Origin: Sulfitobacter sp. M05
Lineage (GTDB): Bacteria; Pseudomonadota; Alphaproteobacteria; Rhodobacterales; Rhodobacteraceae
DNA length: 64,000 bases
Assembly: GCF_029285175.1 (NCBI RefSeq)
Contig: NZ_JABEDH010000002.1
Coordinates: forward strand, 992,001-1,056,000
Direction: 5' to 3'
Shown here piece after piece: positions 4,670-63,115 of the stretch. A program made the position numbers and the translations under genes. The notes below the pieces were generated by a model, which made no database searches, was not told the DNA's origin, and saw only the letters and a program-made list of their open reading frames with translations. Within the stretch, counting starts at the first letter, position 1. Each line of letters starts with the position of its first letter.

Positions 4670-5046
4670 CTACGTTTCCTGTGTTGGCCAGTTGGCCATT
4701 TGCATAGAGGCCGAATTGCCTCTGACTCCGGTATCTTATTTGGTCGGCGCTGGAGTCCGGGCGCCGGCTTTCAGATGTCGCGCGTGTACATCAGATTGCG
4801 GTCGAGGGAAAGAGTTGTGGTGCGGGGGTGGTTCTTTGGCAAAATGGCGCTGCACGCGCATATCGGACTGCGGGATTTGGGGCCAGTTGCGGCGTGGGCG
4901 TATGGCGGGGCCATTGATGCGAAAGGGGCGGCAAAACGCAGGCTGGGGGATGAGTTTGTGGTTCCAAGTTCCCCACGCGCACTGCAGACTGTTGCCGCAG
5001 ATTGTGAATCGGCCCGGTGCCCAATTTCACGAAAGGAGCTTACAAA
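4670..5046. promoter_or_regulatory. divergent intergenic region between pnp and the VOC gene, no gene seen
   Basis: These 377 bp separate two divergent genes, so promoters for both should lie here. Several short frames cross it, but none has recognisable similarity or a convincing ribosome binding site. Close to the pnp start is the tandem palindrome TGGCCA-GT-TGGCCA (4685-4698). In other bacteria pnp leaders are cleaved and autoregulated; whether that holds here cannot be read from the sequence. Confidence 0.5.
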
Positions 5047-5463
5047 ATGATTGCTTACGTCACTGTTGGTGCAGATGATATCGTTCGGGCAAAAGGGTTC
5101 TATTCCGCGTTTCTGCCCGCCCTTGGCTATGACCTGAAAGAAGGGCCAGAGGGGCTGAGCTTTGCTTTGCCGGTCGCGCTGGGACAATCGCCGGTTCATC
5201 CGGATTTCTATGTAAAACCAACATTTAACGGCATGCCGGCCACGGCAGGGAATGGGGCCATGGTCGCCTTTGAGGCCCGTGATCAACAGCAGGTGCGTGA
5301 TCTACATGCCGCCGCCCTTGTCGCTGGCGGGCAGGACGAGGGCCAGCCGGGTTTTCGCCCCTCATATGGCCCGCGTTTCTATGTCGGTTACCTTCGCGAC
5401 CCTCAGGGCAACAAAATCGCCTTGTTTTCCAGTAACCCGAATGAAGCAGGGCGGGACGGGTAG
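5047..5463 (+). CDS. VOC/glyoxalase superfamily protein
   Basis: A 138-residue single-module vicinal-oxygen-chelate protein. The beta-alpha-beta fold shows as IAYVTVGADDIVRAKGFYSA at the N-terminus and FYVGYLRDPQGNKIALF at the C-terminus, the usual signature of glyoxalase/bleomycin-resistance/dioxygenase relatives. The ATG at 5047 is preceded by AAGGAG at the right distance; a GTG at 5017 is in frame but less well placed. The substrate is unknown: VOC members include glyoxalases, fosfomycin and bleomycin resistance proteins and dioxygenases, and nothing nearby decides. It is divergent from pnp and appears monocistronic. Confidence 0.85.
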   Translation: MIAYVTVGADDIVRAKGFYSAFLPALGYDLKEGPEGLSFALPVALGQSPVHPDFYVKPTFNGMPATAGNGAMVAFEARDQQQVRDLHAAALVAGGQDEGQPGFRPSYGPRFYVGYLRDPQGNKIALFSSNPNEAGRDG

Positions 5464-5661
5464 GCCACACAGGAAATCGCTCGAATTGGTACTTATGCGT
5501 GGCCAGATTCCCCAATGAATGACCGTTCCGCCTTGATTTTGTGCAGGGTGATCCTAACCAAAAGCAACATTTGGCCGATACGGTCATTTTAACCAAGCAT
5601 TAACTCTTTTCAGGTGAAAAAGTGCTACCATTAAGGGAATCGCAACTGGGAGGATGCCAAG

Positions 5662-5877
5662 ATGAAAAATCATGATTTGGAGCACCAGATGGAGCAGTTG
5701 GAGCGTGCGCTTGACGCGGCTTCCACACGAGAGCGGCTGAAACTTGCCCCTCATGTTCAACAGATCACCTGCCGGCTGGGCGCGCGGCACCAACCGATCC
5801 CGCGCCGCTTACAGAGCATCCAAAAAGTGCTGGAGCAGGAAGCCTTTGACGACATGTTCGACAACATGCCTGTCTAA
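5662..5877 (+). CDS. small conserved-looking protein of unknown function
   Basis: A 71-residue product beginning MKNHDLEHQMEQLERALD, preceded by GGGAGGA 9 bases upstream, which supports translation. The first 25 residues look helical and charged, perhaps a short coiled coil; the rest is arginine-rich (RHQPIPRRLQ) with an acidic tail. There are no cysteines and no membrane segment. I do not recognise a family. It lies between the VOC gene and the convergent amidinotransferase gene, and the start region at about 5580-5650 is AT-rich, as a promoter would be. Confidence 0.6.
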   Translation: MKNHDLEHQMEQLERALDAASTRERLKLAPHVQQITCRLGARHQPIPRRLQSIQKVLEQEAFDDMFDNMPV

Positions 5878-48719: not shown

Positions 48720-49421
48720 TCAGCCCCAAGTGACATCGCCGAGAAAGATGTATCCGGCACCGTAGATTGTTTTGATCAGGCGCGGGTTTTTTGGGTCTTC
48801 GCGCAGTTTTGTACGCAGCCGCGAAATCCGCACATCCATGGCCCTGTCAAAGGACTCAGAGGCGGCACCGCCAAGGCTTTCTTGCATCTGGGTGCGGCTG
48901 ATCAGACGTTTGGGGCTTTCCAGAAAGAGCCGCAAGACTTCGCTTTCTGCATGGGAAAACGGTATCTCCTCGCCTTCGGTATCGCATAGAACATAGCTGT
49001 CGAAATAGGCGGTCCAGCCGTTGAAGCTGGCGGTATTGCCGGTGGCAGTTGCGGATTTGGGGCTGCGCAGGCGGGCGCGGATGCGGGCCACCACTTCGGT
49101 CGGATCGAAGGGTTTGATGATGTAGTCATCGGCACCCAGTTCAAGCCCCGTCACGCGGTCCTGCACCTGCGCGCGGCCGGAAATGATGATCACAACCGCG
49201 CCCAGTTCAAGGGCCAGCCGGTGGACCAGCGTCAGCCCGTCGGTGTCGGGCAAGCTGAGATCGACAAGGCAGACATCGGGGGTGCGTTTGGCCAGCGCCG
49301 CCTCAAAGGCGCGGGCGCGGGCGAAGCTGAGGGTGTCAAAGCCGGCCTCTTCCAGCGCATCGGCCAGAAGGGTGCGAATTTCGGGTTCATCGTCCAGAAT
49401 GGTGACGAGGGGGCGGGTCAT
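48720..49421 (-). CDS. OmpR/PhoB-type response regulator
   Basis: A 233-residue two-component regulator. The receiver domain has the acidic pair in VTILDDEPEIRTLL, the phospho-acceptor Asp54 in DVCLVDLSLPDTDG and the conserved lysine in DDYIIKPFDPTEV. The C-terminal winged-helix domain has LLFLESPKRLISRTQMQESL-like and RAMDVRISRLRTKLREDP motifs ending in IKTIYGAGYIF. Its ATG overlaps the stop of the hybrid kinase gene (ATGA), so the two form a pair. The divergent acyl-CoA ligase/Liv genes 2 kb away are the likely targets. Confidence 0.95.
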   Translation of the reverse strand: MTRPLVTILDDEPEIRTLLADALEEAGFDTLSFARARAFEAALAKRTPDVCLVDLSLPDTDGLTLVHRLALELGAVVIIISGRAQVQDRVTGLELGADDYIIKPFDPTEVVARIRARLRSPKSATATGNTASFNGWTAYFDSYVLCDTEGEEIPFSHAESEVLRLFLESPKRLISRTQMQESLGGAASESFDRAMDVRISRLRTKLREDPKNPRLIKTIYGAGYIFLGDVTWG

Positions 49422-51325
49422 TCAGGGGCCTCGCGCGTTGGAGTGATAAGAGCCGCGAGATCATCCGCGGTGAAGGGTTTGCGCAGCACCGGGGCCAGCC
49501 GCTGACCACTGCGGAACAAAGCGTTGTCAGGCGGCAGCGAAGTCATCAGCAGCATTGGCACACGGTCTGCATTGCGCTGGGCAAGGTCGAGGCCGGTGGC
49601 TTCGCCGACCAGCTGGATATCGGAAAGAATCATTGCGATATCGGGCAGATCGGCAAGCAGGGCCGTGGCTTCGTCGGCGCTGATGGCTTCGATGACGGAA
49701 TGGCCCAGATGCATCAGCATATCACGTACAGATGCGCGGATGTCGCCGTCGTCCTCGACCAGCAGCACGAGACCGGTGGTGGCCGGCAGAGCGGCGCGGT
49801 AGGGCAGGCGCAGGGTGATCAGCGCGCCGGTGTCGCCGTTGCGCAGGCGCAGGTCGCCGCCGGCAGATTTCGCCATATCATAGACCATCGAGAGGCCCAG
49901 TCCGCTGCCTTCGCTGGCCTTGGTGGTGAAAAAGGGGTCGATGCCGCGTTCAAGGGCGATGGGCGAGAAACCGGGGCCGGAATCCTCGACGGTCCATTCG
50001 ATCCAAGTGTCGTTTACAACCCGTTGTTTCAGGGTGATATTTCCCGCCGCACCGCAGGCATCGCGGGCGTTCAGGATCAGGTTTAACAGGCTGTCGGTGA
50101 TATGCCCCTTGTCCAGCAGCACCGCCTGATCCGGGGCGTTGTTTTCGATGACAAGTGTCATTCCATCGGGCAGGGCCGGGTTTGCCAGCGTGGCAAGATC
50201 ACTCAGCACCGTTGCAGGGGCCGTGGCGGTGGGGCGCTGGGCGCGCGGGCCGGTGACATCGGCAATTGAGCTGAGCAGGGTGCCGCCGCGCCGTGCTGCC
50301 GCGAGGGTGCCGTTCACCAGTTCAAGTGCCTGTTCGGGCAGGTCCGGCAGGCGGCCAAGCCGGGATTGCATCCCTAGAATGATCGTCAGCAGGTTGGAAA
50401 AGTCATGCGCCAACCCTGAAATCATTTGTGCGGCCAGCTCGCGTTTGCGGGTTTGTTGCAGAGCGACGCGGGTTTGGGTTTCCTCGGTGATGTCCATCGA
50501 CAGGATATAGGCCCCGCCGAGGGTATCGGGCGTAAAGGCGGCGCGGATGCGGCGGGCGGAGGCATCATGGGTGAATTCCTTGATTGCGGCGATGCCGTTG
50601 AAAGCGTCCTTCAGTGCGGGTTCGATACGCTCGTAAGCTTGCGCACCCAGGGCTGCGCTGATGTGCAGCCCGGCAATATCGGTAGGCCGGCCCGGCATTA
50701 CTGTAGACAGTTTGTTGTTGGAAAACGTGTAGTGCCCGTTGGCATCAACATGGGCGATATGGGCCGGCATCATTTGGGTGGTCAGACGGGTGCGGGCCTC
50801 GGAAGCTGTTAGTTGCCGTTTGGTTTCTTCAAGGGTGGTGATCATCGCGGCCAGTTTGCGGTTTGTTGCGGACAGTTGTTCGGCATGGGCAAGCACCTGA
50901 TCCGACAGCGCATCCGAGCGTGCGCTGAGCAGGGCCTCTTGTTGTTTGGTCGCGGTGATGTCGGTGTAAACAGTCACCCAGCCGCCTTGCGGCAGGGGGG
51001 ACCCCTCGACGCTGATGGTGCAGCCGTTTGCGCGGGTGCGTTCCATGTAGTGCGGCTTGAAAGCCAGAGCCTGATCAATGCGTTCGTTCACAAAGCTGTC
51101 GACATCTTCGACCGGCCCGTATTCGCCACGGGCGGCAAGGTGACGGATGGTTTCGCGAAAGGTGGCCCCCGGTGTGACCAGCCTGTCGGGCAAGCTGAAC
51201 ATTTGTTGGAACGGAGCGTTGGAGACCACAAGTTGCAAGTTAGAATCGTAGATTGTCAGGGCCTGTGCAATCAGGTTTAACCCGGCGCTGGTCATCGCTT
51301 TGGCTTGTTCGTCGGTGATCTGCAT
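49418..51325 (-). CDS. PAS-containing hybrid histidine kinase
   Basis: A 635-residue sensor with no membrane segment, so it senses in the cytoplasm. Order: PAS domain 1 (about 15-125, ALTIYDSNLQLVVSNAPFQQ), a coiled coil (about 130-180), PAS domain 2 (about 185-280), HisKA with phospho-acceptor His307 in SGLAHDFSNLL, HATPase (NARDACGAAG, EDSGPGFSP, GSGLGLSMVY) and a C-terminal receiver (about 518-630) with Asp569 in MILSDIQLVG. GGAGG precedes the ATG at 51325. The extra receiver may modulate signalling to the partner regulator. It is divergent from the ligase gene (206 bp), implying control of that operon, perhaps by an intracellular ligand such as an acyl compound. Confidence 0.94.
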   Translation of the reverse strand: MQITDEQAKAMTSAGLNLIAQALTIYDSNLQLVVSNAPFQQMFSLPDRLVTPGATFRETIRHLAARGEYGPVEDVDSFVNERIDQALAFKPHYMERTRANGCTISVEGSPLPQGGWVTVYTDITATKQQEALLSARSDALSDQVLAHAEQLSATNRKLAAMITTLEETKRQLTASEARTRLTTQMMPAHIAHVDANGHYTFSNNKLSTVMPGRPTDIAGLHISAALGAQAYERIEPALKDAFNGIAAIKEFTHDASARRIRAAFTPDTLGGAYILSMDITEETQTRVALQQTRKRELAAQMISGLAHDFSNLLTIILGMQSRLGRLPDLPEQALELVNGTLAAARRGGTLLSSIADVTGPRAQRPTATAPATVLSDLATLANPALPDGMTLVIENNAPDQAVLLDKGHITDSLLNLILNARDACGAAGNITLKQRVVNDTWIEWTVEDSGPGFSPIALERGIDPFFTTKASEGSGLGLSMVYDMAKSAGGDLRLRNGDTGALITLRLPYRAALPATTGLVLLVEDDGDIRASVRDMLMHLGHSVIEAISADEATALLADLPDIAMILSDIQLVGEATGLDLAQRNADRVPMLLMTSLPPDNALFRSGQRLAPVLRKPFTADDLAALITPTREAPE

Positions 51326-51531
51326 CAGGGCCTCCTGCCTTATCGCTAGCACTGAAGCCGCGCGAGGCAAAGGGCCTGAAGGGTGTCTGGTGGCGCTGTT
51401 ACATTTCGTAAGGTTTTAGAAAAATTCAGGAAAAAGTTGACCTCCACGCTGTAGCCATCATCCTGATGGATGGGGGAATCGCATAAAGCGGTCGATCCTG
51501 CCGAATAGGGCAGGTTAGGGAGGACATAACT
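51326..51531. promoter_or_regulatory. divergent promoter region between the kinase and the ligase-Liv operon
   Basis: These 206 bp hold both starts. A small palindrome CCATCA-TCC-TGATGG lies at 51455-51469 and a TTGACC box at 51437-51442, either of which might belong to the ligase promoter. AGGGAGGA at 51518-51525 is the ligase ribosome binding site. None of the regulator sites can be assigned with certainty. Confidence 0.4.
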
Positions 51532-53505
51532 TTGGCAACGCCACTGACGCGCGCCGACGGACCACAGTCCGTTCCGGCGCTACTGCATCGTAACGCCACC
51601 AAATTCGCGGACGCACCGGCGTACCGTGAAAAAGAATATGGTATCTGGCAAAGCTGGACCTGGTCGCAGACCCGCGACGAGGTTGAGGCGCTGGCGCTGG
51701 GCCTGATGGAAATGGGCATCAACGAGGGCGATTTTGTTGCGATCATCGGACGCAACCGCCCATATCTTTATTGGGCGATGATGGCCGCAGAGATGTGCGG
51801 CGCTGTGCCTGTGCCGCTGTATCAGGACGCCAACGCCGAAGAGATGGCCTATGTGATGAGCCACTGCGGTGCGCGTTTTGCCATCGTGGGAGATCAGGAG
51901 CAGGTCGACAAGATTCTGGAAGTCGAAGAGCAGCTGTCTGAGTTCGAGCAGATGATTTACCTCGATCCGCGCGGTTTGCGCAAATATGATCACGGCGCGA
52001 TGAAGCAATATTCCAACGTGCAGGAAATCGGCCGCCAGTTCCGCGACAAACACATTAAGGAGCTGGAAGCACGTCAAGCCAAGCTGGATTACGACAGCAC
52101 AGGCGTGATGCTTTATACTTCAGGCACAACCGGCAAGCCCAAGGGCGTGGTTCTGAGCAACCGCAACGTCATCGAGACTGCCAAGTCGTCTTCCGAATTC
52201 GACGGGCTGCGTCAGAGTGATGATATTCTAGCCTATTTGCCGATGGCATGGGTGGGTGATTTTATCTTTTCCGTTGGGCAATCCCTGTGGACCGGGTTCT
52301 GCACCAACTGCCCGGAATCCGCAGACACCATGCATGTGGATCTGCGCGAGATTGGCCCGACCTATTACTTTGCCCCGCCGCGGGTATTCGAAACGCAGCT
52401 GACCAATGTGATGATCCGCATGGAAGACGCCAGCCGCATGAAAAAATGGCTGTTCGATACCTTCATGGCCCATGCCCGCAAGGTTGGACCGGCGATTCTG
52501 GATGGCAAAAGCGTCAGCCAATGGGACCGGTTTAAATACAAGCTGGGCGAAGCGTTTGTCTATGGGCCGCTGAAGAACACCCTCGGGTTTTCACGTGTGC
52601 GGGTCGGCTATACGGCGGGTGAAGCGATCGGGCCGGAAATCTTTGATTTCTATCGGTCCTTGGGGATCAACCTGAAACAGCTTTACGGCCAGACCGAAGC
52701 CACAGTGTTTATCACCGCGCAGCCGGATGGCGAAGTGCGCAGTGATACGGTGGGCGTCACATGCCCCGGTGTGGAGCTGAAAATCGCCGAGAATGGCGAA
52801 GTATTTTATCGCTCGCCGGGCGTTTTTGTGGAGTATTACAAAAACCCCGAAAGCACCGCCGATACCAAGGATGCCGAAGGTTGGGTCGCCACAGGCGACG
52901 CGGGCTTTATCGAGGAAAGCTCGGGGCATTTGCGGATCATCGACCGGGCCAAGGACGTGGGCCAGATGGCGAGCGGATCGTTGTTTGCGCCAAAATACGT
53001 CGAGAACAAGCTGAAGTTCTTTCCGAATATTCTGGAGGCTTTGGTTTTTGGCAACGGCAAGGATGAATGTACAGCCTTTATCAATATCGACCTGACTGCG
53101 GTTGGTAACTGGGCGGAACGCAATAACATTGGCTATGCCTCCTATCAGGAACTGGCCCAGCATCCGCAAGTGGTTTCGCAGATTCAGGATCACGTCGAAG
53201 CGGTAAACGCATCGGTGGCCGAGGACGAGATGCTGTCAGGGTGTCAGGTGCATCGCTTTGTTGTGCTGCACAAGGAACTGGATGCTGATGACGGTGAATT
53301 GACACGTACCCGCAAGGTGCGCCGCCGGATCATCGAAGATAAGTATGCTGATATCATCGCGGCACTTTACGACGGGTCGGTAGAGGTCAGCACCGAGACG
53401 GAAGTGACCTATGAAGACGGGCGCAAGGGGTCGATCAAAGCGACGCTGGGTGTGCGGGACGCAAAGGTCATACCGGTGACACCAACAAGAATGGCGGCGG
53501 AATGA
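51532..53505 (+). CDS. long-chain-type acyl-CoA synthetase (AMP-forming)
   Basis: A 657-residue adenylate-forming ligase. The P-loop-like motif is MLYTSGTTGKPKGVVLSNRN, the adenine-binding motif LYGQTEATVF, and the hinge and catalytic-lysine end includes GWVATGDAGFIEESSGHLRI. The length and FACS-like order fit long-chain acyl-CoA ligases, but substrates in this group range widely. No ATG is well placed: translation starts at TTG 51532 (ATPLTRADGPQSVPALL) with AGGGAGGA just upstream. It heads the Liv-type operon, with a second, unrelated CoA ligase at the far end. Confidence 0.93.
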   Translation: MATPLTRADGPQSVPALLHRNATKFADAPAYREKEYGIWQSWTWSQTRDEVEALALGLMEMGINEGDFVAIIGRNRPYLYWAMMAAEMCGAVPVPLYQDANAEEMAYVMSHCGARFAIVGDQEQVDKILEVEEQLSEFEQMIYLDPRGLRKYDHGAMKQYSNVQEIGRQFRDKHIKELEARQAKLDYDSTGVMLYTSGTTGKPKGVVLSNRNVIETAKSSSEFDGLRQSDDILAYLPMAWVGDFIFSVGQSLWTGFCTNCPESADTMHVDLREIGPTYYFAPPRVFETQLTNVMIRMEDASRMKKWLFDTFMAHARKVGPAILDGKSVSQWDRFKYKLGEAFVYGPLKNTLGFSRVRVGYTAGEAIGPEIFDFYRSLGINLKQLYGQTEATVFITAQPDGEVRSDTVGVTCPGVELKIAENGEVFYRSPGVFVEYYKNPESTADTKDAEGWVATGDAGFIEESSGHLRIIDRAKDVGQMASGSLFAPKYVENKLKFFPNILEALVFGNGKDECTAFINIDLTAVGNWAERNNIGYASYQELAQHPQVVSQIQDHVEAVNASVAEDEMLSGCQVHRFVVLHKELDADDGELTRTRKVRRRIIEDKYADIIAALYDGSVEVSTETEVTYEDGRKGSIKATLGVRDAKVIPVTPTRMAAE

Positions 53506-53671
53506 GCGTGCGATCTAGGTTCGCGCTGATGCCACGCTTTTGTCTGTTGCCGCAGGCGGCAGACAATGCGCGGCGCGCGGCGTCATCCCGGATGTCGGGT
53601 GTGAACGCAGCTGTCGCGCTCGGGGAGGGGACAGTTTTGAGTTTAATTTGCAAGATGAAGGATGGGGCGGC

Positions 53672-54490
53672 GTGAAAGATATTGCTGAAAGCTATGTCAC
53701 AACGGACGGGCGCACCATTGGGCCTGTTGTGATGGAGATGAAGAATATTACCCTTAGATTTGGCGGCGTTGAGGCGATCAAGGATATCTCCTTTAACATC
53801 CGTGAAGGGGAAATTCGCGCCATCATCGGGCCGAACGGCGCGGGTAAATCGTCGATGCTGAATGTCATCTCGGGGTTCTATGTGCCGCAGGAGGGCGAGG
53901 TTTGGTACAAGGGCGCGCGTCGGCCGGCGATGAAACCTTTCGAGGTTGCCCGGCAGGGGATTGCGCGGACATTTCAGAACATTGCCCTGTTTGAAGGGAT
54001 GAGCGTTCTGGACAATGTGATGACCGGACGGCTGACCCATATGAAAACAGGGTTGTTTGCGCAGTCGCTGTGGAAGGGTAAAGCCGAGGCCGAGGAAATC
54101 GAGAACCGCGAAGTGGCGGAGAAGATTATTGATTTTCTTGAGATTCAGGCGATCCGCAAGACACCTGTCGCGCGTCTGCCTTACGGTTTGAAGAAACGGG
54201 TTGAGTTGGCGCGGGCCTTGGCCGCGGAGCCGTCGATCCTGCTTTTGGATGAACCGATGGCGGGGATGAACGTCGAGGAAAAAGAGGACATGAGCCGCTT
54301 TATTCTGGATGTGAACGATGAATTTGGCACCACGATTGCACTGATCGAGCACGATATGGGTGTGGTGATGGACCTGTCTGATCGGGTTGTTGTGATGGAT
54401 TACGGCAAGAAGATCGGCGACGGCACACCGGATGACGTGCGTAACAATCAGGATGTGATTGATGCCTATCTGGGGGTTGCCCATGACTAA
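53672..54490 (+). CDS. Liv-type ABC transporter ATPase (LivG-like)
   Basis: A 272-residue ATPase. Walker A is IGPNGAGKSSMLN, the signature motif is degenerate as ARLPYGLKKRVELARAL, and Walker B is ILLLDEPMAGMN. The LivG-type insertion and C-terminal end (VIDAYLGVAHD) are present. A GTG at 53672 preceded by GGATGGGG is the chosen start; no ATG gives a better one, and the 166 bp before it show no other gene. With the LivF-like ATPase at 58165 it would form the heterodimer driving import. Confidence 0.92.
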   Translation: MKDIAESYVTTDGRTIGPVVMEMKNITLRFGGVEAIKDISFNIREGEIRAIIGPNGAGKSSMLNVISGFYVPQEGEVWYKGARRPAMKPFEVARQGIARTFQNIALFEGMSVLDNVMTGRLTHMKTGLFAQSLWKGKAEAEEIENREVAEKIIDFLEIQAIRKTPVARLPYGLKKRVELARALAAEPSILLLDEPMAGMNVEEKEDMSRFILDVNDEFGTTIALIEHDMGVVMDLSDRVVVMDYGKKIGDGTPDDVRNNQDVIDAYLGVAHD

Positions 54491-54538
54491 TTCATACGGT
54501 CCCGATCCACTTATTGCCGGTTTGCAGGGGGCATTACG

Positions 54539-55546
54539 ATGAACGAACAACTCGCCTTTACGATTGAGGTTTTTGCCAACGGGCTGATGGCGGGGGTGCT
54601 TTATGCGCTGGTCGCTTTGGGGTTCGTTCTGATTTACAAAGCCTCTGGAATTTTCAATTATGCCCAAGGTGTTATGGCGCTTTTTGCGGCGATGACGCTG
54701 GTTGGTATTCAGAACGGGCAGGTGCCATTTGCCCATCTGATCAACGCGATTTTTGGCACTGAAATTCACCATTTTGGCTGGCATGTACATTCGTTTCTCG
54801 CGATCCTGTTGACAGTGGTTGTGATGATTGCGCTGGCCTGGATGGTGCAGCAGTTTGTGTTCAAGCATCTGGTGGGTCAGGAGCCGATCATTCTGTTTAT
54901 GGCGACCATCGGTCTGGCCTATTTCCTTGAAGGGGTGGCGGATCTGATGTGGGGGTCCGAGCTTAAGGCGTTGAACGTCTGTGCCGCGGAAGGAGCTTGC
55001 CTGCCGCAGGGGATGAACCTGTGGCTTGAGGGCACGACCTATGAGGCGCTGGGATACGGGTTCTTCATCGACAACCTTGATATTGTTGCGACAATTGTTG
55101 CCGCTGTGCTGGTCGCCGGGTTGATCATGTTTGCCCAGTACACAAAGCAGGGCCGCGCGATGCGGGCCGTGGCGGATGACCATCAGGCAGCCTTGTCGGT
55201 TGGTGTATCGCTGAACTTTATCTGGGTTCTGGTGTGGTCATTGGCGGGGTTTGTCGCGCTGGTTGCCGGCATCATGTGGGGCGCCAAATCAGGTGTGCAG
55301 TTTTCGCTGTCGCTGATCGCCCTCAAGGCGCTGCCGGTGTTGATGCTGGGAGGCTTTACGTCGATCCCCGGGGCCATTGTGGGTGGTTTGATCATCGGTG
55401 TGGGCGAGAAGTTGTTTGAGTTCTTGATTGGCGCGCCCTTCCTTGGCGGGGCCACGGAGAACTGGTTTGCTTACATGCTGGCGCTCGTGTTCCTGGTGTT
55501 CCGTCCGCAGGGCTTGTTCGGGGAGAAGATCATTGAGCGTGTTTGA
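54539..55546 (+). CDS. Liv-type ABC transporter permease (LivH-like)
   Basis: A 335-residue inner-membrane permease with eight or more hydrophobic segments. LMAGVLYALVALGFVLIYKA and GIFNYAQGVMALFAAM are the LivH hallmark at the start; the EAA-like cytoplasmic loop reads GRAMRAVADDHQAALSVGV. It is longer than E. coli LivH by about 30 residues, mainly in the first periplasmic loop (FGTEIHHFGWH). GGGGG precedes the ATG. It is followed by a repeat-bearing 79-bp gap and then livM. Confidence 0.93.
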   Translation: MNEQLAFTIEVFANGLMAGVLYALVALGFVLIYKASGIFNYAQGVMALFAAMTLVGIQNGQVPFAHLINAIFGTEIHHFGWHVHSFLAILLTVVVMIALAWMVQQFVFKHLVGQEPIILFMATIGLAYFLEGVADLMWGSELKALNVCAAEGACLPQGMNLWLEGTTYEALGYGFFIDNLDIVATIVAAVLVAGLIMFAQYTKQGRAMRAVADDHQAALSVGVSLNFIWVLVWSLAGFVALVAGIMWGAKSGVQFSLSLIALKALPVLMLGGFTSIPGAIVGGLIIGVGEKLFEFLIGAPFLGGATENWFAYMLALVFLVFRPQGLFGEKIIERV

Positions 55547-55559
55547 TGCCATGCGGCGC

Positions 55560-55610
55560 GTGGGTTTCACCCACCTTACAACAAAAACCGTAGGGTGGGC
55601 GCATTCCACC
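55560..55610. repeat. small palindromic intergenic repeat between the two permease genes
   Basis: GTGGGT-TTC-ACCCAC (55560-55574) is followed by CCCACCTTAC (55570-55579) and GTAGGGTGGG (55590-55599), which pair with each other apart from one T:G, and by GGTGG/CCACC (55594-55610). These nested motifs fit in a 79-bp gap inside an operon. They look like a dispersed GTAGGGTGGG-type repeat. Confidence 0.6.
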
Positions 55611-55625
55611 ACATTGGAGGCGTAA

Positions 55626-56738
55626 ATGTTCTACCGTGAAGCAGGCGATTTCAACACGTCCTACGCCGAGGACCAGCAGACCTTTCCGATCAAATTTGAC
55701 CGGTATCGCTATTACGTGGTGTTGTTCATCGCGATTGTGATCATCCCGTTTGTGATCAATGACTATTGGGCCAACTCTTTGTTGTTGCCCTTCCTGATCT
55801 ACGCCATTGCGGCGCTGGGGTTGAACATCCTGGTCGGGTATTGCGGGCAGGTCAGCCTTGGTACCGGCGGGTTTATGGCGGTGGGGGCCTATTCCTGCTA
55901 CAAGTTCATGACCGGCGTGGATATCTGGTGGGGCGGTGAACTGCTGTTCCGTTTGCCAGAGTTCAACATCTTTTTCAGCATCATCATGGGCGGTGTCATG
56001 ACCGCGATCGTGGGTGTGTTGTTCGGTTTGCCGTCCTTGCGGATCAAAGGGTTTTACCTTGCCGTGGCGACACTGGCGGCGCAGTTCTTCCTTGTATGGC
56101 TGTTCAACCGTGTGGCTTGGTTTTACAACTATTCCGCGTCGGGCCAGATTTCTGCGCCAGAGCGTGAACTGTTCGGGGTATTGATCACCGGACCCAGCAC
56201 CCCGGCATGGGCGACCTACCTGTTCTGTCTGTTCTTCACGGTTGTCTGTGCGATTGTGGCGCGCAACATGACCCGCGGTGCGGCAGGGCGTAAATGGATG
56301 GCCATCCGCGACATGGACATCGCTGCCGAGATCATCGGGGTGAACCCGCTGCGCGCCAAGCTGACGGCCTTTGCGGTATCCTCGTTTTTTATCGGGATTT
56401 CGGGTGCCTTGTTCTTTGCGGTCTATCTGGGCGCGGTCGAAGTTGGCGAAGCCTTTAGCATCACAAAATCGTTTCTGGTGTTGTTCATGATTATCATCGG
56501 CGGCTTGGGCAGCATCTTTGGCTCTTTTGCCGGGGCGGCGTTCCTTGTGGTCCTGCCGGTTGCCCTTAAGATTGTCGGCGTTGACTGGTTCGGCTGGCCG
56601 ACGGACATCGTGGCGCATTTGCAGTTGGTTGTTGTGGGCGGGTTGATTGTAATCTTCCTGATTGCCGAACCGCACGGGATTGCCCAGCTGTGGCGTGTTG
56701 CAAAAGAGAAGTTGAGATTGTGGCCGTTCCCCCACTAG
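55626..56738 (+). CDS. Liv-type ABC transporter permease (LivM-like)
   Basis: A 370-residue second permease. The LivM pattern is clear: IAALGLNILVGYCGQVSLGT then GGFMAVGAYSCYKF, PSLRIKGFYLAVATLAAQFF and the cytoplasmic loop GRKWMAIRDMDIAAEIIGVN. The end LIVIFLIAEPHGIAQLWRVA is the family terminus. GGAGG precedes the ATG at 55626. With LivH it forms the membrane channel of the importer. Confidence 0.94.
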   Translation: MFYREAGDFNTSYAEDQQTFPIKFDRYRYYVVLFIAIVIIPFVINDYWANSLLLPFLIYAIAALGLNILVGYCGQVSLGTGGFMAVGAYSCYKFMTGVDIWWGGELLFRLPEFNIFFSIIMGGVMTAIVGVLFGLPSLRIKGFYLAVATLAAQFFLVWLFNRVAWFYNYSASGQISAPERELFGVLITGPSTPAWATYLFCLFFTVVCAIVARNMTRGAAGRKWMAIRDMDIAAEIIGVNPLRAKLTAFAVSSFFIGISGALFFAVYLGAVEVGEAFSITKSFLVLFMIIIGGLGSIFGSFAGAAFLVVLPVALKIVGVDWFGWPTDIVAHLQLVVVGGLIVIFLIAEPHGIAQLWRVAKEKLRLWPFPH

Positions 56739-56810
56739 GGGCGCCACGTGAAGAACGCGGGATGAACCCGCGAGACGACAATCGGATAATATCCAAGGGA
56801 GGAAACACCG

Positions 56811-58094
56811 ATGAAATATAAACTAGGTACAATGGCCGTGGCCACGATGATGGCGGCAAGCCCTGTCATGGCTGACCTTGTGTTCCCGTCACTGAGCTAT
56901 CGCACGGGTCCTTATGCGGCGGGTGGTATCCCGTTCGCGGATGGCTATGCGGATTACTTCACCATGTTGAATGCCCGCGACGGCGGCATCGGTGGCGTAA
57001 TGACCAAGGTTCTGGAATGCGAAACCGGTTATAACACCGAAAAGGGTGTTGAGTGTTATGAAAGCACCAAAGGCGAAGGTTCGCTGGTGTATCAACCGCT
57101 GTCCACCGGCATCACCTACCAGTTGATCCCCAAGACAACAGCCGACAACATTCCGATGCACACAATGGGCTATGGCCGGACATCCGCCGCAAATGGCGAT
57201 GTGTTCAGCCACACGTTCAACTATCCTGCGAACTACTGGAACGGTGCCTCTGGTGCGGTTAACTATCTCTTGAACGAGAATGGCGGTTCACTTGAAGGCA
57301 AGAAAATTGCGCTGGTTTACCACAACTCTGCATACGGCAAAGAGCCGATCCGCACCCTGACTGAGCTGTCCAAAAAGCATGGCTTTGAGTTCAAGGAAGT
57401 GCCAGTTGACCACCCCGGTCAGGAGCAGAAATCGCAGTGGTTGCAGATCCGTCGCGACAAGCCTGACTATGTGATCATGTACGGCTGGGGCGTGATGAAC
57501 CAGGTTGCGGTTCAGGAAGCCGCGAACATCCGTTTCCCGATGGAGAACTTTATCGGCATCTGGTGGTCCGGTTCTGAAAACGACGTGCTGGCAGCGGGTG
57601 ACGCGGCCAACGGGTACAAAGCGTTGACGTTCCACGGCGTGGGCGACGATTTCCCCGTATTCGACGACATCAAAAAACACGTAGTTGATGCGGGCAATGC
57701 GGCCGGTGCTGGCGACCAGATCGGTACAGTTCTGTACAACCGTGGTCTTTATGCGGCGATGCTGGCGGCGGAAGCTGTGAAAACGGCGCAGGAAATCCAC
57801 GGTGTTGCAGACATCACAGCGGCGCAAATGCGTGACGGGATGGAAGCCCTGTCGATCACCGAAGAAAAGATGGCGGCCCTTGGTCTGCCGAACTTTGGTC
57901 CGTCCTTTGACGTGTCCTGTGCCAACCACGGTGGCGAAGGCTATGTCGGTGTGACCCAGTGGGATGCATCCGCCAAATCATGGTCGCTGATCTCTGACTT
58001 CGCGCCATCCGACATGGATGTGATCGGGGCGTTGGTTGCAGAAGACTCAGCAGCCTATGCCGCTGAAAACAACATCGAAAGCAGCTGTAAATAA
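56811..58094 (+). CDS. Liv-type periplasmic substrate-binding protein
   Basis: A 427-residue binding protein with a signal peptide (MKYKLGTMAVATMMAASPVMA). The type I periplasmic-binding fold shows YRTGPYAAGGIPFADGYADY in the first lobe and KIALVYHNSAYGKEPIRTLT as the hinge-following helix. It is about 60 residues longer than LivJ/LivK, and the sequence before GGIGGVMTKVLECETGY is unlike amino-acid binders, so the ligand may be something other than leucine, such as an aromatic or alicyclic acid. GGGAGG precedes the ATG. A hairpin follows and probably protects its mRNA. Confidence 0.93.
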   Translation: MKYKLGTMAVATMMAASPVMADLVFPSLSYRTGPYAAGGIPFADGYADYFTMLNARDGGIGGVMTKVLECETGYNTEKGVECYESTKGEGSLVYQPLSTGITYQLIPKTTADNIPMHTMGYGRTSAANGDVFSHTFNYPANYWNGASGAVNYLLNENGGSLEGKKIALVYHNSAYGKEPIRTLTELSKKHGFEFKEVPVDHPGQEQKSQWLQIRRDKPDYVIMYGWGVMNQVAVQEAANIRFPMENFIGIWWSGSENDVLAAGDAANGYKALTFHGVGDDFPVFDDIKKHVVDAGNAAGAGDQIGTVLYNRGLYAAMLAAEAVKTAQEIHGVADITAAQMRDGMEALSITEEKMAALGLPNFGPSFDVSCANHGGEGYVGVTQWDASAKSWSLISDFAPSDMDVIGALVAEDSAAYAAENNIESSCK

Positions 58095-58102
58095 GTTGCA
58101 CT

Positions 58103-58142
58103 CCCCTGTCCCGTGCGCCACGTGCGGGGCGGGGGTTCTTTT
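58103..58142 (+). terminator. partial terminator or mRNA-stabilising hairpin after the binding-protein gene
   Basis: The 15-base arms 58103-58117 and 58121-58135 pair fully with a few G:U pairs around CCA, followed by TTCTTTTG. Placed inside the operon directly after the binding-protein gene, it should raise that transcript over the downstream ATPase and ligase. Confidence 0.75.
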
Positions 58143-58164
58143 GAATTTTTGAGAGGTTTGCCCC

Positions 58165-59001
58165 ATGCTGGATGACGCAAAAGCCGCCGCCACACAGGTA
58201 GAGAACGTGTTGGAGGTCAACAATATCGAAGTGATCTACAACCACGTGATCCTTGTGTTGAAGGGCGTCAGCCTGAATGTGCCCAAGGGCGGGATCACCG
58301 CCTTGCTGGGCGGTAACGGCGCGGGCAAGACCACGACGCTCAAGGCGATTTCCGGTCTGCTGGCCAGTGAACGCGGCGAAGTGACCAAGGGCTCGATCAA
58401 ATATCGCGGTCTGGACATTGCCTATGCCGACCCTGCCGAGACCGTGAAAAAAGGTGTCGTGCAAGTGATGGAAGGCCGTCACTGTTTCGAACACCTGACG
58501 ATTGAAGAGAACCTGATGACCGGGGCCTATACCCGTTCGGACGGCAAAGGTGCCATCGCCGCAGATCTGGAAATGGTGTATAATTATTTCCCGCGTTTGC
58601 GCGAACGGCGTAAATCGCAGGCCGGCTATACCTCGGGTGGTGAACAGCAGATGTGTGCGGTTGGCCGCGCCTTGATGTCCAAGCCTGAGACGATCCTGCT
58701 GGACGAGCCGTCCATGGGCCTGGCCCCGCAGCTGGTTGAGCAGATTTTTAACATCGTGAAAGAGATCAACGAAAAGGAAGGGGTGACCTTCCTTCTGGCC
58801 GAACAGAATACCAATGTTGCCCTGCGTTTTGCGCATTACGGTTACATTCTGGAATCCGGTCGGGTTGTGATGGATGGTCCCGCTGCGGACCTGCGCGAAA
58901 ACAAAGATGTTAAAGAGTTCTATCTGGGCATGTCGGATGAGGGCCGCAAAAGCTTTCGCGATGTCCGGTCCTATCGCCGCCGCAAACGCTGGTTGTCCTG
59001 A
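58165..59001 (+). CDS. Liv-type ABC transporter ATPase (LivF-like)
   Basis: A 278-residue ATPase. Walker A is LLGGNGAGKTTTLKAISG, the signature is YTSGGEQQMCAVGRALM, and Walker B is TILLDEPSMGLAPQLVEQI. The tail YLGMSDEGRKSFRDVRSYRR is longer and more basic than in LivF proper. It begins 70 bp after the binding-protein stop, past the hairpin. Together with the LivG-like ATPase it completes the five-part importer. Confidence 0.94.
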   Translation: MLDDAKAAATQVENVLEVNNIEVIYNHVILVLKGVSLNVPKGGITALLGGNGAGKTTTLKAISGLLASERGEVTKGSIKYRGLDIAYADPAETVKKGVVQVMEGRHCFEHLTIEENLMTGAYTRSDGKGAIAADLEMVYNYFPRLRERRKSQAGYTSGGEQQMCAVGRALMSKPETILLDEPSMGLAPQLVEQIFNIVKEINEKEGVTFLLAEQNTNVALRFAHYGYILESGRVVMDGPAADLRENKDVKEFYLGMSDEGRKSFRDVRSYRRRKRWLS

Positions 59002-59083
59002 CGCCACGCAGGGGCCAACGCCCTATCTACATTTTGCAGCGCCCGAAAGGTGGGCGTCTTGTCCACCCTGATGGGGAAAAGCC

Positions 59084-60262
59084 ATGGCTGACACATATTT
59101 TGACGATCTGGAAACCCGCAGCGCGGATGCCCGCGAGGCTGCGCAATTGGCCGCCTTGCAAGAACAGCTGGTGCGCACCAATGTTAACGAAACACTGAGC
59201 AGTCTGGCCGATCTGGCCAAGTTGCCGGTGCTGCGTAAATCCGACCTAACCGAAGCGCAGAAGGCCAAGCCGCCGTTCGGCGGGATCAATGTCCAGAACA
59301 TCACCCATGTGTTCCAGTCACCCGGCCCGATTTATGAGCCCGGTGGCTCTGGCGGGGATTGGTTTCGTATGGGGCGTTTTTTACATGCCGCTGGTCTGGG
59401 TGCGGATGATATTGTGCAGAACTGTTTCGGCTATCATTTGACCCCGGCGGGCCACATGTTTGAAAGTGGCGCGCGTGCGGTTGGTGCCAAGGTGCTGCCT
59501 GCTGGTGTGGGGCAGACGGAATTGCAGGTCACAGCCGCGCGGGATGTGGGGACGACGGCCTATGCGGGCACGCCCGATTACCTCAAGATCATTCTGGAAA
59601 AAGCGGACGAGATGGGGGTGACCCTGAACATCACCAAGGCTGCTGTTGGCGGTGGTGCGTTGTTCCCGTCGCTGCGCCAGTATTACATTGATCGCGGGAT
59701 TTCCTGCCTGCAATGTTACGCTACTGCGGATGTCGGCAACATCGCCTACGAGAGTGCGGCAATGGAAGGGATGATTCTGGACGAGGGGGTGATTGTCGAG
59801 ATCGTCACACCGGGCACCGGCACCCCTGTGGCAGAGGGCGAAGTGGGTGAGGTTGTGGTGACAACCCTGAATCCTGATTACCCGTTGATCCGTTTCGCGA
59901 CCGGTGATTTGTCGGCCTTTATGACCGGCCCGTCGCCCTGTGGCCGTAGTAACCGGCGCATTAAAGGCTGGATGGGCCGCGCTGATCAGACAACCAAGAT
60001 CAAGGGCATGTTTGTGCGCCCTGAACAGGTGGCCGCCCTTGTCGCGCATCATGACGAGATCACCAAGGCCCGTGTTGTCGCCAGCCGCACAGGTGAACAG
60101 GACGTAATGACCGTTCACATCGAAAGCCCGCAAGATGATGCAAAGGCCTACGGACAGTCGGTGGCGCAACTGCTCAAGCTGAAAGGGCAGGTTGTAGTCG
60201 TCGCGCCGGGCACTTTGCCAAAAGACGGATTGGTGATCGAGGATCAGCGCAGCTATGACTAA
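59084..60262 (+). CDS. phenylacetate-CoA-ligase-like AMP-forming ligase (PaaK type)
   Basis: A 392-residue adenylate-forming ligase of the PaaK group. TYFDDLETRSADAREAAQLA and LPVLRKSDLTEAQKAKPPFG are the PaaK N-terminal pattern. The usual SSGTTG loop is changed to PGPIYEPGGSGGDWFRMGRF. CYATADVGNIAYES matches the adenine-pocket region, and GWMGRADQTTKIKGMFVRPE the hinge. GGGGAAAAG precedes the ATG. As the last gene of the Liv operon it suggests an aryl or related acid as cargo. The odd P-loop makes the assignment of activity less certain. Confidence 0.87.
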   Translation: MADTYFDDLETRSADAREAAQLAALQEQLVRTNVNETLSSLADLAKLPVLRKSDLTEAQKAKPPFGGINVQNITHVFQSPGPIYEPGGSGGDWFRMGRFLHAAGLGADDIVQNCFGYHLTPAGHMFESGARAVGAKVLPAGVGQTELQVTAARDVGTTAYAGTPDYLKIILEKADEMGVTLNITKAAVGGGALFPSLRQYYIDRGISCLQCYATADVGNIAYESAAMEGMILDEGVIVEIVTPGTGTPVAEGEVGEVVVTTLNPDYPLIRFATGDLSAFMTGPSPCGRSNRRIKGWMGRADQTTKIKGMFVRPEQVAALVAHHDEITKARVVASRTGEQDVMTVHIESPQDDAKAYGQSVAQLLKLKGQVVVVAPGTLPKDGLVIEDQRSYD

Positions 60263-60373
60263 GGCTATTCGAGGTTGACCTGACACCTCACGCGTCCCTT
60301 TCCAGGTTCGTTCAGAAGGATGGGGCGTGAAAAAGGGGGCAAGTCTTCCTTGAAACGCAATCGAGTCCTGGGT

Positions 60374-60910
60374 CTAGCTTTGCAGTTGCTTGATGTTGTC
60401 CAGTGACAGCCGATCAATCCCATTTGCATAGTTTTTGGCGTTCAAATGGTAAAAGGCCGCGTTCCGCAGGTTCGCGGCCGCATTGTCGACAGTCTTGATC
60501 AGCTTGGCCGGGCTGCCGGCAATGATCGAATTCTTCGGGAAAACCGACCCTTCCGTCACGATCGAATGGCCCGCGACAATGGAATTACTGCCGATCTTGG
60601 CACCGTCCATAATGGTTGCGCCAATCCCGATCAGCACCCTGTCGCCGATTTCACACCCATGCAGAACAACGCGGTGGGTAATGGAGCAGTCATCGCCGAC
60701 AATGGTTGGCGTCGCAAAACCAACGTGGATCATAACGTGGTCTTGGATATTGGTCCGCTCGCCGATCACAATTTCATGCATTTCCGCACGTGTCACAACA
60801 TAGGGCCAGATTGACGACCCGGCACCAACAGTGACTTTTCCGTATAGAAGAGCGGTATCGTGCACCAAGGCTGGTTCGTTCAAAGTAACGTCGGCACCAA
60901 TATGTGGCAT
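60374..60910 (-). CDS. gamma-carbonic-anhydrase/PaaY-like left-handed beta-helix protein
   Basis: A 178-residue hexapeptide-repeat protein. The left-handed beta helix covers about residues 10-150 (LYGKVTVGAGSSIWPYVVTR, IGIGATIMDGAKIGSNSIVA), with histidines in NIQDHVMIHVG and CSITHRVVLHGCEIG at the positions that bind zinc in gamma-class anhydrases. PaaY-type thioesterases and CaiE share this fold. The start at 60910 follows GGGAGAAG; upstream in-frame codons have no family match. It is convergent with the PaaK-like gene and may work with it. Confidence 0.88.
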   Translation of the reverse strand: MPHIGADVTLNEPALVHDTALLYGKVTVGAGSSIWPYVVTRAEMHEIVIGERTNIQDHVMIHVGFATPTIVGDDCSITHRVVLHGCEIGDRVLIGIGATIMDGAKIGSNSIVAGHSIVTEGSVFPKNSIIAGSPAKLIKTVDNAAANLRNAAFYHLNAKNYANGIDRLSLDNIKQLQS

Positions 60911-61081
60911 GTGTCTTCTCCCGTTTTCCAAACCTAGGGCCGATCCTTCAAAAAACGGTAGTCTTTCGTTACGTAAGAGCGCGCGTCTGACCTCAATGTC
61001 GATGGGGTAGGAGGTTGGGTTCCGGACCATTGGCCAGGGGCGGAGGGCGCGCGCGCAGTTGGAGACCCGCGCCCTCTTTGA

Positions 61082-61450: not shown

Positions 61451-63115
61451 ATGACCTCTGTGACCGACCCAGAACAGCGCCCGATGAAACCCCGCGACGG
61501 GCTGCGCGGGCTGTCCCTGATTGCCATTCTTGCGGCGGTGGTCTGTGCCTTGCCGATGGTTGCTGTGGGGCTGGCCGCCTTTGGCGGGGGCACGGAAACG
61601 GTGCGCCATCTGGTTGATACGGTATTGGGGGAATACACCCGCACCACGCTGGCGCTGGTTTTACTGGTGTCTTTGGGGACGTTTTGTATCGGTGTCGGGG
61701 CGGCGTGGCTGGTTACGATGACACGGTTTACCGGGGTGCGCGTGTTGGAGATTGCATTGGTACTGCCGCTGGCCTTTCCGGCCTACGTGCTGGCCTATGC
61801 TTATACCAATGTTTTTGACCACCCCGGGATTGTGCAGACAACACTGCGCGATGTGATGGGGTGGGGACCGCGAGATTACTGGTTTCCAGACATCAGATCA
61901 CTGGGCGGCGCGGCCCTTATGCTCACGCTGGTGTTGTATCCTTATGTTTATCTGTTGGCGCGGGCTGCGTTCCTGCAACAAAGCGGTACAACATTTCTGG
62001 CAGCGCGGGCCCTTGGGTCAAGCCCGTGGGCCGCGTTTTTCAAAGTCAGCCTGCCACTGGCCCGTCCCGCGATTGCGGCGGGTGTTTTGCTGGCGGTGAT
62101 GGAAACAATCGCGGATTTTGGCACGGTGGCCTATTTCGGTGTACAGACCTTTGCCACCGGCATCTATACCGCGTGGTTCTCGTTGTTTGACCGAACGGGG
62201 GCGGCGCAACTGGCCCTGTGTTTGCTGAGTTTCGCCCTGCTGTTGGCGATGCTGGAGCGGATGCAACGGGGGCGTGCCAAGTACCACGATCCGGCGCGAC
62301 AGGCACAACAAATGGCACCGATCGAATTGACTGGCTGGCCGGCGCTTTGTGCGCAGGTGCTATGCGGTGTGCCGGTGCTGTTCGGGGCGGTATTACCGAT
62401 ATTTGTGCTGTTCAGCATGGGGTTGGGATCAGAGCAGAACCTGCTCAGCCCGCGTTACCTTGGATTCATTCGCAATTCGTTGACGCTGGCGGCGGTCGCG
62501 GCAATTGTGACGGTGGCCGCGGCGATTGCTGTCGGGTTTTTCCAGCGGCTGAGGCCGGGACGTGTGTCGCGCAGTACCGGTTATGTTGCGCGTTTGGGCT
62601 ATGCGGTGCCGGGCGGGGTGATCGCTGTGGGGTTGATGGTGCCCTTTGCGATGTTTGACAATGCGCTGGATGCCTGGATGCGCGCCACATTTGACATCTC
62701 GACCGGGCTGCTGGTCACCGGTTCAATATGGTTGCTGGTTGCGGCCTATATGGTGCGGTTTCTGGCGGCGGCACTGGGGGCTTATGAGGGCGGACAGGCG
62801 ATGGTGCATGTCAATATGGATGCCGCCGCCCGTTCGCTTGGGCAGACGCCGGTAGGTACATTGCGCCGCGTGCATTTGCCGATACTTGCGCCGTCTTTGC
62901 TGACCGCGCTGTTGATCGTCTTTGTCGACGTGATGAAGGAACTGCCCGCGACGTTGATCATGAGGCCGTTCAACTTTGACACATTGGCCGTGCAGGCTTA
63001 CCGGCTGGCAAGCGATGAACGGCTGGACGGGGCAGCCGTGCCATCACTGGTGATCGTGGCCATGGGGTTGCTGCCGGTGATCTTGATTTGCCGTCAGGTG
63101 GGACGCCGTCGATAG
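61451..63115 (+). CDS. iron(III) ABC transporter permease (FbpB/SfuB type)
   Basis: A 554-residue fused double permease with about 12 hydrophobic segments. Both halves carry the EAA-type loop: AARALGSSPWAAFFKVSLPLARPAIAAG (first, given in part here as AARALGSSPWAAFFKVSL) and AARSLGQTPVGTLRRVHLPI (second). The end VDVMKELPATLIMRPFNFDT is the FbpB signature. The fbpA binding protein and fbpC ATPase are not adjacent in this window. The start at 61451 has GAGGT upstream; an ATG at 61484 is an alternative. The region 61280-61450 may hold a promoter, but no clear iron-regulator box was seen. Confidence 0.9.
   Translation: MTSVTDPEQRPMKPRDGLRGLSLIAILAAVVCALPMVAVGLAAFGGGTETVRHLVDTVLGEYTRTTLALVLLVSLGTFCIGVGAAWLVTMTRFTGVRVLEIALVLPLAFPAYVLAYAYTNVFDHPGIVQTTLRDVMGWGPRDYWFPDIRSLGGAALMLTLVLYPYVYLLARAAFLQQSGTTFLAARALGSSPWAAFFKVSLPLARPAIAAGVLLAVMETIADFGTVAYFGVQTFATGIYTAWFSLFDRTGAAQLALCLLSFALLLAMLERMQRGRAKYHDPARQAQQMAPIELTGWPALCAQVLCGVPVLFGAVLPIFVLFSMGLGSEQNLLSPRYLGFIRNSLTLAAVAAIVTVAAAIAVGFFQRLRPGRVSRSTGYVARLGYAVPGGVIAVGLMVPFAMFDNALDAWMRATFDISTGLLVTGSIWLLVAAYMVRFLAAALGAYEGGQAMVHVNMDAAARSLGQTPVGTLRRVHLPILAPSLLTALLIVFVDVMKELPATLIMRPFNFDTLAVQAYRLASDERLDGAAVPSLVIVAMGLLPVILICRQVGRRR

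Follow-up and report, generated by a model that had tools for sequence, protein, structure and literature searches.

The DNA analysed here is a window of 64,000 nucleotides from Sulfitobacter sp. M05 (contig NZ_JABEDH010000002.1, positions 992,001 to 1,056,000), in which one operon places the genes of a Liv-type ATP-binding cassette (ABC) importer between two ligase-type genes. Its order is LigA-LivG-LivH-LivM-SBP-LivF-PaaK-like, where LigA is an acyl-CoA ligase and SBP the periplasmic substrate-binding protein. Judged from the genes and their company in other genomes, it is very probably an organic acid import-and-CoA module. An earlier note on this DNA had proposed such an uptake-and-activation module, and conserved gene order together with the co-occurrence of LigA and the PaaK-like protein now supports the proposal. 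The genes, frames and coordinates given there are borne out by open reading frames and Pfam; the operon and its divergent kinase/regulator pair are real, and the arrangement is more than chance since the order recurs in many genomes. The operon is apparently undescribed, as far as searches of open-licence papers go, which listed nothing recognised as this operon, and the source names of its parts (branched-chain amino acid transport, phenylacetate-CoA ligase) are probably misleading.

Conservation of the operon

A synteny comparison, the check that had been proposed for the module, finds the gene order conserved in Rhodobacteraceae, other Alphaproteobacteria and Burkholderiales. The full series from LigA to the PaaK-like gene recurs across the first two of these, and the bacteria that share the gene set include many from soil and from the sea. 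A scan of named genomes was read for the best 80 of at least 586 confirmed stretches, which are nearly all from Burkholderiales as the first row of the query was Burkholderiales. All seven genes are present in 60 of these best 80 loci, the remaining 20 being shortened loci of 3.7-15 kb.

LigA and the PaaK-like protein occur together. Thresholds for a sample of 397 genomes of the phylum were fixed before the searches (LigA E<=1e-120, PaaK-like E<=1e-70); both proteins pass in the same 84 genomes, which span 17 families, and at these thresholds the remaining 313 have neither. Within the family, 120 genomes were searched with a cut of 1e-100, which for the PaaK-like protein was picked after the list had been seen, the next match standing at 1.4e-58. 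The PaaK-like protein is found in 93 of these and LigA in 94, with 93 in common. A fragmentary genome (G552) has LigA only, and in four genomes (G071, G300, G334, G446) the PaaK-like gene lies at least 28 kb from the LigA operon.

The SBP is less tightly tied to the pair. Matches to it were found in 40 of 60 genomes, made up of the window's own, 34 of 35 further genus members and 5 of 24 from elsewhere in the class, and, at E<=1e-3, in 105 of the 397 phylum genomes. The sole genus member without a match is a genome that is 64% complete, and the nearest named SBP, from Sulfitobacter pacificus, is 96% identical. At E<=1e-50, 83 genomes have a match, of which 70 carry the LigA/PaaK-like pair and 13 do not, and 14 of the 84 genomes with the pair have none. 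This occurrence in operons without the pair sets the SBP apart from 4ru0, an SBP from the Pseudomonas fluorescens group that is among the closest known systems and whose structure was deposited without a named function. Relatives with 41-43% identity belong to operons that lack both LigA and the PaaK-like gene (L072 at 3934-5670, L210, L211), alongside genes for a luciferase-type monooxygenase and FMN reductase. Given these monooxygenase genes, the SBP family may serve other compounds.

Two further arrangements exist. The second, G-LigA-H-M-SBP-F-PaaK, has a LigA 35-41% identical to that of the window and a far diverged SBP. In the third, LigA is 42-44% identical, and the operon contains two SBP genes along with genes for a CoA-transferase, a dehydrogenase and a hydratase. 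Plasmids were covered by taking 11 of 27 matching stretches, 8 of them with a gene table. Plasmid cassettes of Sulfitobacter and Pseudosulfitobacter (L276, L277) have the order G-LigA-H-M-F-SBP-SBP with CoA-transferase, acyl-CoA dehydrogenase and hydratase genes, and their gene content reads as a further LigA-Liv type for an acid.

Several of these observations weigh against the proposal. The co-occurrence counts ignore phylogeny. No PaaK-like gene is present in the stretches read of the third arrangement, and the Sulfitobacter and Pseudosulfitobacter plasmid cassettes with LigA at 42-44% identity have none adjacent. A plasmid copy in Methylibium PM1 has the PaaK-like gene with LigA not adjoining; an insertion sequence (IS) element is near this copy and Rieske oxygenase genes lie some 7 kb away. 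Methylibium PM1 is known for its tert-butanol hydroxylase. A strict pairing of every LigA-like protein with a PaaK-like protein was rejected, as unpaired cassettes exist.

LigA and the Liv-type transporter

LigA has an AMP-binding domain (228.6 bits) with an intact P-loop, TSGTTGKPKG, and keeps the motifs YGxTE (as YGQTE) and TGD and the C-terminal EDGRKG stretch. Among NCBIfam models it scores best against the fatty acid ligase FadD11 (NF038343), with 271.7 bits, short of the cut-off of 950. The next-best LigA relative in the window genome scores 56 bits.

The transporter has the make-up of LivFGHMK-type (HAAT) importers, namely two BPD_transp_2 permeases, two ABC ATPases and a Peripla_BP_6 binding protein. 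The operon differs from these importers by its two constant ligase-type genes and by missing the NCBIfam cut-offs for LivG (247.2 bits against 362), LivH (83.8 against 379), LivM (108.7 against 366) and LivF (203.3 against 441). Neither the SBP nor the PaaK-like protein has a PADLOC defence-system match.

The PaaK-like protein

Profile and fold group the PaaK-like protein with PaaK ligases (Foldseek best 4rvn_D, E 4.2e-30; model pLDDT 83), and it shares the overall fold and C-terminal motifs of the PaaK family (4r1l, 2y27, 2y4o, 6hdw). It differs from that family in its ATP loop, where the SSGTTG(K/N)P of 4r1l, 2y4o and 2y27 is replaced by S-P-G-x-[ILMV]-x-[ED], and in missing the PaaK model TIGR02155 (110.1 bits, cut-off 646.3). 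This SPGPIYE-type loop is found in 140 of 140 homologues, 139 by pattern and one (L197, SPGPICEP) by eye, and in 8 of 8 further plasmid copies. The host genome's one readable distant PaaK keeps SSGTTGQ. Membership of PaaK proper was thus rejected on the loop and the cut-off, not on the fold. Eight PaaK-like matches have one in-frame stop inside the aligned range (G168, G206, G231, G257, G290, G338, G368, G422), which may be no more than the regular stop codon close to where the match ends.

Adenylation by this protein is doubtful, most of all in Sulfitobacter, because the ATP loop is replaced and the lysine of DGKxIxD, which we take to be the A10 lysine of ANL enzymes, is leucine in congeners. 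The residue is K in 70 of the 80 Burkholderiales proteins (the best 80 of at least 586 stretches), in 18 of 31 and 11 of 14 members of two wider sets, in 4 of 20 of a Rhodobacteraceae set and in 0 of 15 congeners, all 15 of which have L. The alignment has GRADQ and TGD invariant.

These residues bear on a variant of the proposal that keeps the module but gives the PaaK-like protein full ligase activity on a second substrate, despite its unusual ATP loop. The variant is a serious minority possibility: the motifs outside the loop are largely kept and most Burkholderiales proteins retain the lysine, set against a loop replaced in every homologue, a leucine in every congener and the constant company of LigA, which suggests a partner role. 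A bolder reading, which we put forward tentatively and think rather unlikely as a whole, regards the PaaK-like proteins as an ANL subfamily turned to a new use, in which ATP-dependent adenylation has been lost and the protein is an obligate partner of LigA. Together with LivG and LivF, the two would form a membrane complex that takes the acid from the permease and releases the CoA thioester, an ABC-coupled acylation with a pseudo-ligase subunit.

Substrate of the module

The earlier note had argued about the ligand from the length of the binding protein. That argument is replaced by one from gene neighbourhood, as genes for branched C4-C5 acyl-CoA metabolism adjoin the operon in some lineages. 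On this basis there is roughly an even chance that the ligand belongs to the class of small methyl-branched short-chain acids.

The neighbours recur in about six lineages, counting L194 with Azospirillum as one and two Rhizobiaceae as one. A gene whose best PDB match is isovaleryl-CoA dehydrogenase lies after the operon in L194 and L066, there accompanied by TetR_C_24 and biotin-dependent carboxylase genes. On p2 of Azospirillum brasilense the operon is preceded by isobutyryl-CoA dehydrogenase and mmsB genes and followed by those for isovaleryl-CoA dehydrogenase, carboxylase subunits and HMG-CoA lyase. In Peteryoungia and Rhizobium SSA_523 that pathway comes after the operon and the two-component pair before it. 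Beside the operon in L099 are ECH_2, thiolase and TetR_C_24 genes and an acyl-CoA dehydrogenase nearest to ACAD8 (1rx0), presumably an isobutyryl-CoA dehydrogenase. Genes for TetR, a B12-binding protein, an acyl-CoA mutase and a MeaB-type protein adjoin the operon on plasmids of Xanthobacter Py2 and Roseovarius THAF8. The two mutases are 69% identical, with 2-hydroxyisobutyryl-CoA mutase as nearest PDB entry; we take that of Xanthobacter Py2 to be a native isovaleryl-/pivalyl-CoA mutase.

On the other side of the balance, no homologues of the branched acyl-CoA pathway pass the cut-offs in the 80 Burkholderiales loci, many of them shortened, or in the 15 congeneric loci. Such genes are also absent from the plasmid stretches of Azospirillum ramasamyi, A. 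lipoferum, Ciceribacter, Aminobacter and Paracoccus. Among the folds nearest to the SBP are 4n03, whose deposited name is that of a fatty acid binder, and 3lkb, which has valine bound. The mutase occurs in 2 of the 120 family genomes, on a contig without the operon in G504 and in a genome without LigA in G563, and was rejected as a regular partner on these grounds.

The same module could serve medium- or long-chain fatty acids, with an ABC route and CoA trapping beside the FadL/FadD route. The FadD11 match of LigA, albeit below the cut-off, the records that call LigA homologues long-chain fatty acid-CoA ligase, and the closeness of the SBP to 4n03 all fit this reading, which is possible and on balance unlikely: the catabolic neighbours that were identified, where there are any, are of the short branched acyl-CoA type. 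Short branched acids are preferred to fatty acids on account of these neighbours and the plasmid records. It is improbable that the transporter is a branched-chain amino acid importer with two ligase genes co-transcribed for another task. All its subunits are of the Liv family and valine-bound 3lkb is a near fold, yet across many families, in two arrangements, LigA is found next to the transporter genes or among them, and the curated Liv cut-offs are missed. The variant of the earlier note, uptake of an aryl acid with a genuine aryl-CoA ligase, is likewise improbable, for despite the PaaK fold and the aromatic acids bound by related SBPs such as 4evq, the P-loop is rewritten, the PaaK cut-off is missed, and no ring-degradation genes were recognised beside the operon in the annotated stretches examined, bar a PaaD-type thioesterase gene in Xanthobacter.

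Control of the operon

The kinase has PAS_7 and HATPase_c domains with sub-threshold PAS_4 and Response_reg matches in Pfam and an H-box, GLAHDFSNLL, at residue 322. Its translation makes the ATG at 51325 the likelier start. It is taken as soluble because its maximum 19-residue hydropathy is 1.45. Control of the operon by this soluble kinase and an OmpR-type regulator, as the earlier note had it, gains support from a candidate promoter site, a 45-bp block that follows the regulator from genome to genome.

The block was defined by a matrix of 14 Sulfitobacter promoters, those of the window and 13 of 15 congeners. Within it 34 of 45 columns are at least 90% conserved against 50 of 162 outside. 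It consists of three 10-bp direct repeats, in their commonest form ATTCGTAAGG, ATTGAGAAAA and CTTCAGGAAA, ending near a -35-like TTGAC, with a weak -10-like CATCCT 3' of the block at about 51459. OmpR/PhoB-type regulators typically bind direct repeats at their target promoters. The two congeners with longer gaps, left outside the matrix, also have the block (z 18; the shuffles behind all z-scores preserve base content only).

A regulator orthologue passes E<=1e-50 in 60 of the 120 family genomes, with identities of just 43-53% in a few, and absence of the regulator means no match at E<=1e-50 or 1e-40. A matrix scan found the block in 15 of 15 further loci whose regulator orthologue is at least 61% identical (z 9.0-22.6; the congener L062 is one of them) and in 0 of 4 loci without the regulator (z up to 2.7). 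L101, with a 54% orthologue, scores in between (z 6.5), and in G405 the block is present and the regulator lies on another contig. Thirteen loci outside the family reach a z of at most 3.9. A prediction written beforehand for 26 upstream regions gave the same picture, with the block in 9 of 9 with the regulator (z 14.3-20.7), in 0 of 16 without it (z up to 3.8), and an intermediate score in one with a 52% orthologue (z 6.8). Among plasmids, the block is present in 3 of 3 Rhizobiaceae loci with the regulator (z 10.8-12.7) and in none of 8 other loci (highest z 1.9), in whose genomes the regulator was not searched for.

Upstream regions without the regulator have a different element, the palindrome TGAAC-N4-GTTCA. 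Unlike that of the 45-bp block, its count is after the fact because the palindrome was noticed in the very sequences then counted: it is exact in 13 of 20 such regions, 123-172 bp before the frame start used, and has one mismatch in 2 more. With up to one mismatch, a level that shuffles reach in 1%, it is found in 0 of 24 regions with the regulator. The palindrome plus AAA is rare in four genomes examined. One site in G328 is at the start of an isovaleryl-CoA dehydrogenase gene; the only site found in the window genome, TGAACATCCGTTCAAA, is just 5' of a TetR-type gene (L254 906-1501; C1:1419673) with 3vpr as best PDB match; further sites in the four genomes are in or near unrelated frames. FadP was dropped as reader of the palindrome, and no repressor is named, because PMC5343134 describes FadP as unique to Betaproteobacteria.

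In Burkholderiales and others a Crp-type regulator gene stands 5' of the LigA operon (L069 3203-4021, L192, L195, L203, L205, L267) and, from its position, appears to be a third kind of control in place of the pair.

Proposed mechanism

Gene order, co-occurrence, the loop change and the correlation between site and regulator are computed results; the direction of transport, the ligand, the roles of the enzymes and the pairing of proteins with DNA sites are inferred. In the proposed mechanism, the ligand bound by the SBP would be a small aliphatic carboxylate; the likeliest candidate is a methyl-branched C4-C6 acid, fed into metabolism close to isovaleryl-CoA or isobutyryl-CoA. LivHM with LivG and LivF would carry the acid into the cell, and LigA would trap it as a CoA thioester. 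The PaaK-like protein would work with LigA, probably without standard ATP-dependent adenylation, and its task may be to hold the acyl group, to transfer or thioesterify it, or to regulate LigA. The soluble PAS hybrid kinase of Sulfitobacter would sense a cytoplasmic signal and the OmpR-type regulator would switch on the operon via the direct repeats abutting the -35 element; in relatives without the two-component pair a repressor-like palindrome takes up that place.

The proposed principle resembles vectorial acylation by FadD in Escherichia coli, in which uptake is driven or trapped by CoA ligation. The difference is that an ABC transporter and two ligase-type proteins would do this here, in a coupling that we infer.

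Locus and neighbouring genes

The frames of the operon are separated by 34-82 bp (Table 1). The LivG frame is open from 53540, but as most LivG homologues have about 250-280 aa, translation probably begins further downstream, somewhere from about 53650 to about 53740.

Table 1. Features of the operon and its surroundings, in window coordinates
Feature	Position	Strand	Basis
OmpR/PhoB-type response regulator	48720-49421	-	Response_reg and Trans_reg_C (Pfam)
Soluble PAS hybrid histidine kinase	49418-51370	-	PAS_7, HATPase_c (Pfam)
Promoter block, 45 bp	51397-51441	+	Conserved columns in 14 Sulfitobacter promoters
LigA, AMP-forming acyl-CoA ligase with C-terminal EDGRKG extension	51532-53505	+	AMP-binding and AMP-binding_C_3
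LivG-type ATPase	53540-54490	+	ABC_tran, BCA_ABC_TP_C; start uncertain
LivH-type permease	54539-55546	+	BPD_transp_2
LivM-type permease	55626-56738	+	BPD_transp_2
SBP, periplasmic binding protein	56811-58094	+	Peripla_BP_6
LivF-type ATPase	58165-59001	+	ABC_tran; NCBIfam LivF best but below cut-off
PaaK-like ANL protein	59084-60262	+	PaaK fold
SPGPIYEP codons, at position of PaaK P-loop SSGTTGKP	59318-59341	+	Alignment to 4r1l, 2y4o, 2y27
Hexapeptide gamma-CA/PaaY-like gene	60374-61030	-	

The gamma-CA/PaaY-like gene is present and convergent as the earlier note described it, but it does not belong to the conserved unit. It was rejected as an operon member, having no homologue in any of 15 congeneric or 40 wider stretches, and it misses the PaaY model TIGR02287 (104.7 bits, cut-off 319.6); it is a local neighbour. 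As an insertion, it separates the operon from an ABC permease gene (61451-63115) with two BPD_transp_1 stretches, a homologue of which lies 3' of the operon in 15 of 15 congeneric loci.

Implications

If the proposal is true, the operon would represent an undescribed way of taking up organic acids that is widespread in Rhodobacteraceae and Burkholderiales, and its PaaK-like protein would stand for a subfamily of ANL proteins marked by a rewritten ATP loop. It would also be a single operon in which one control system seems to be exchanged for another, unrelated one, and both have a DNA site open to direct testing.

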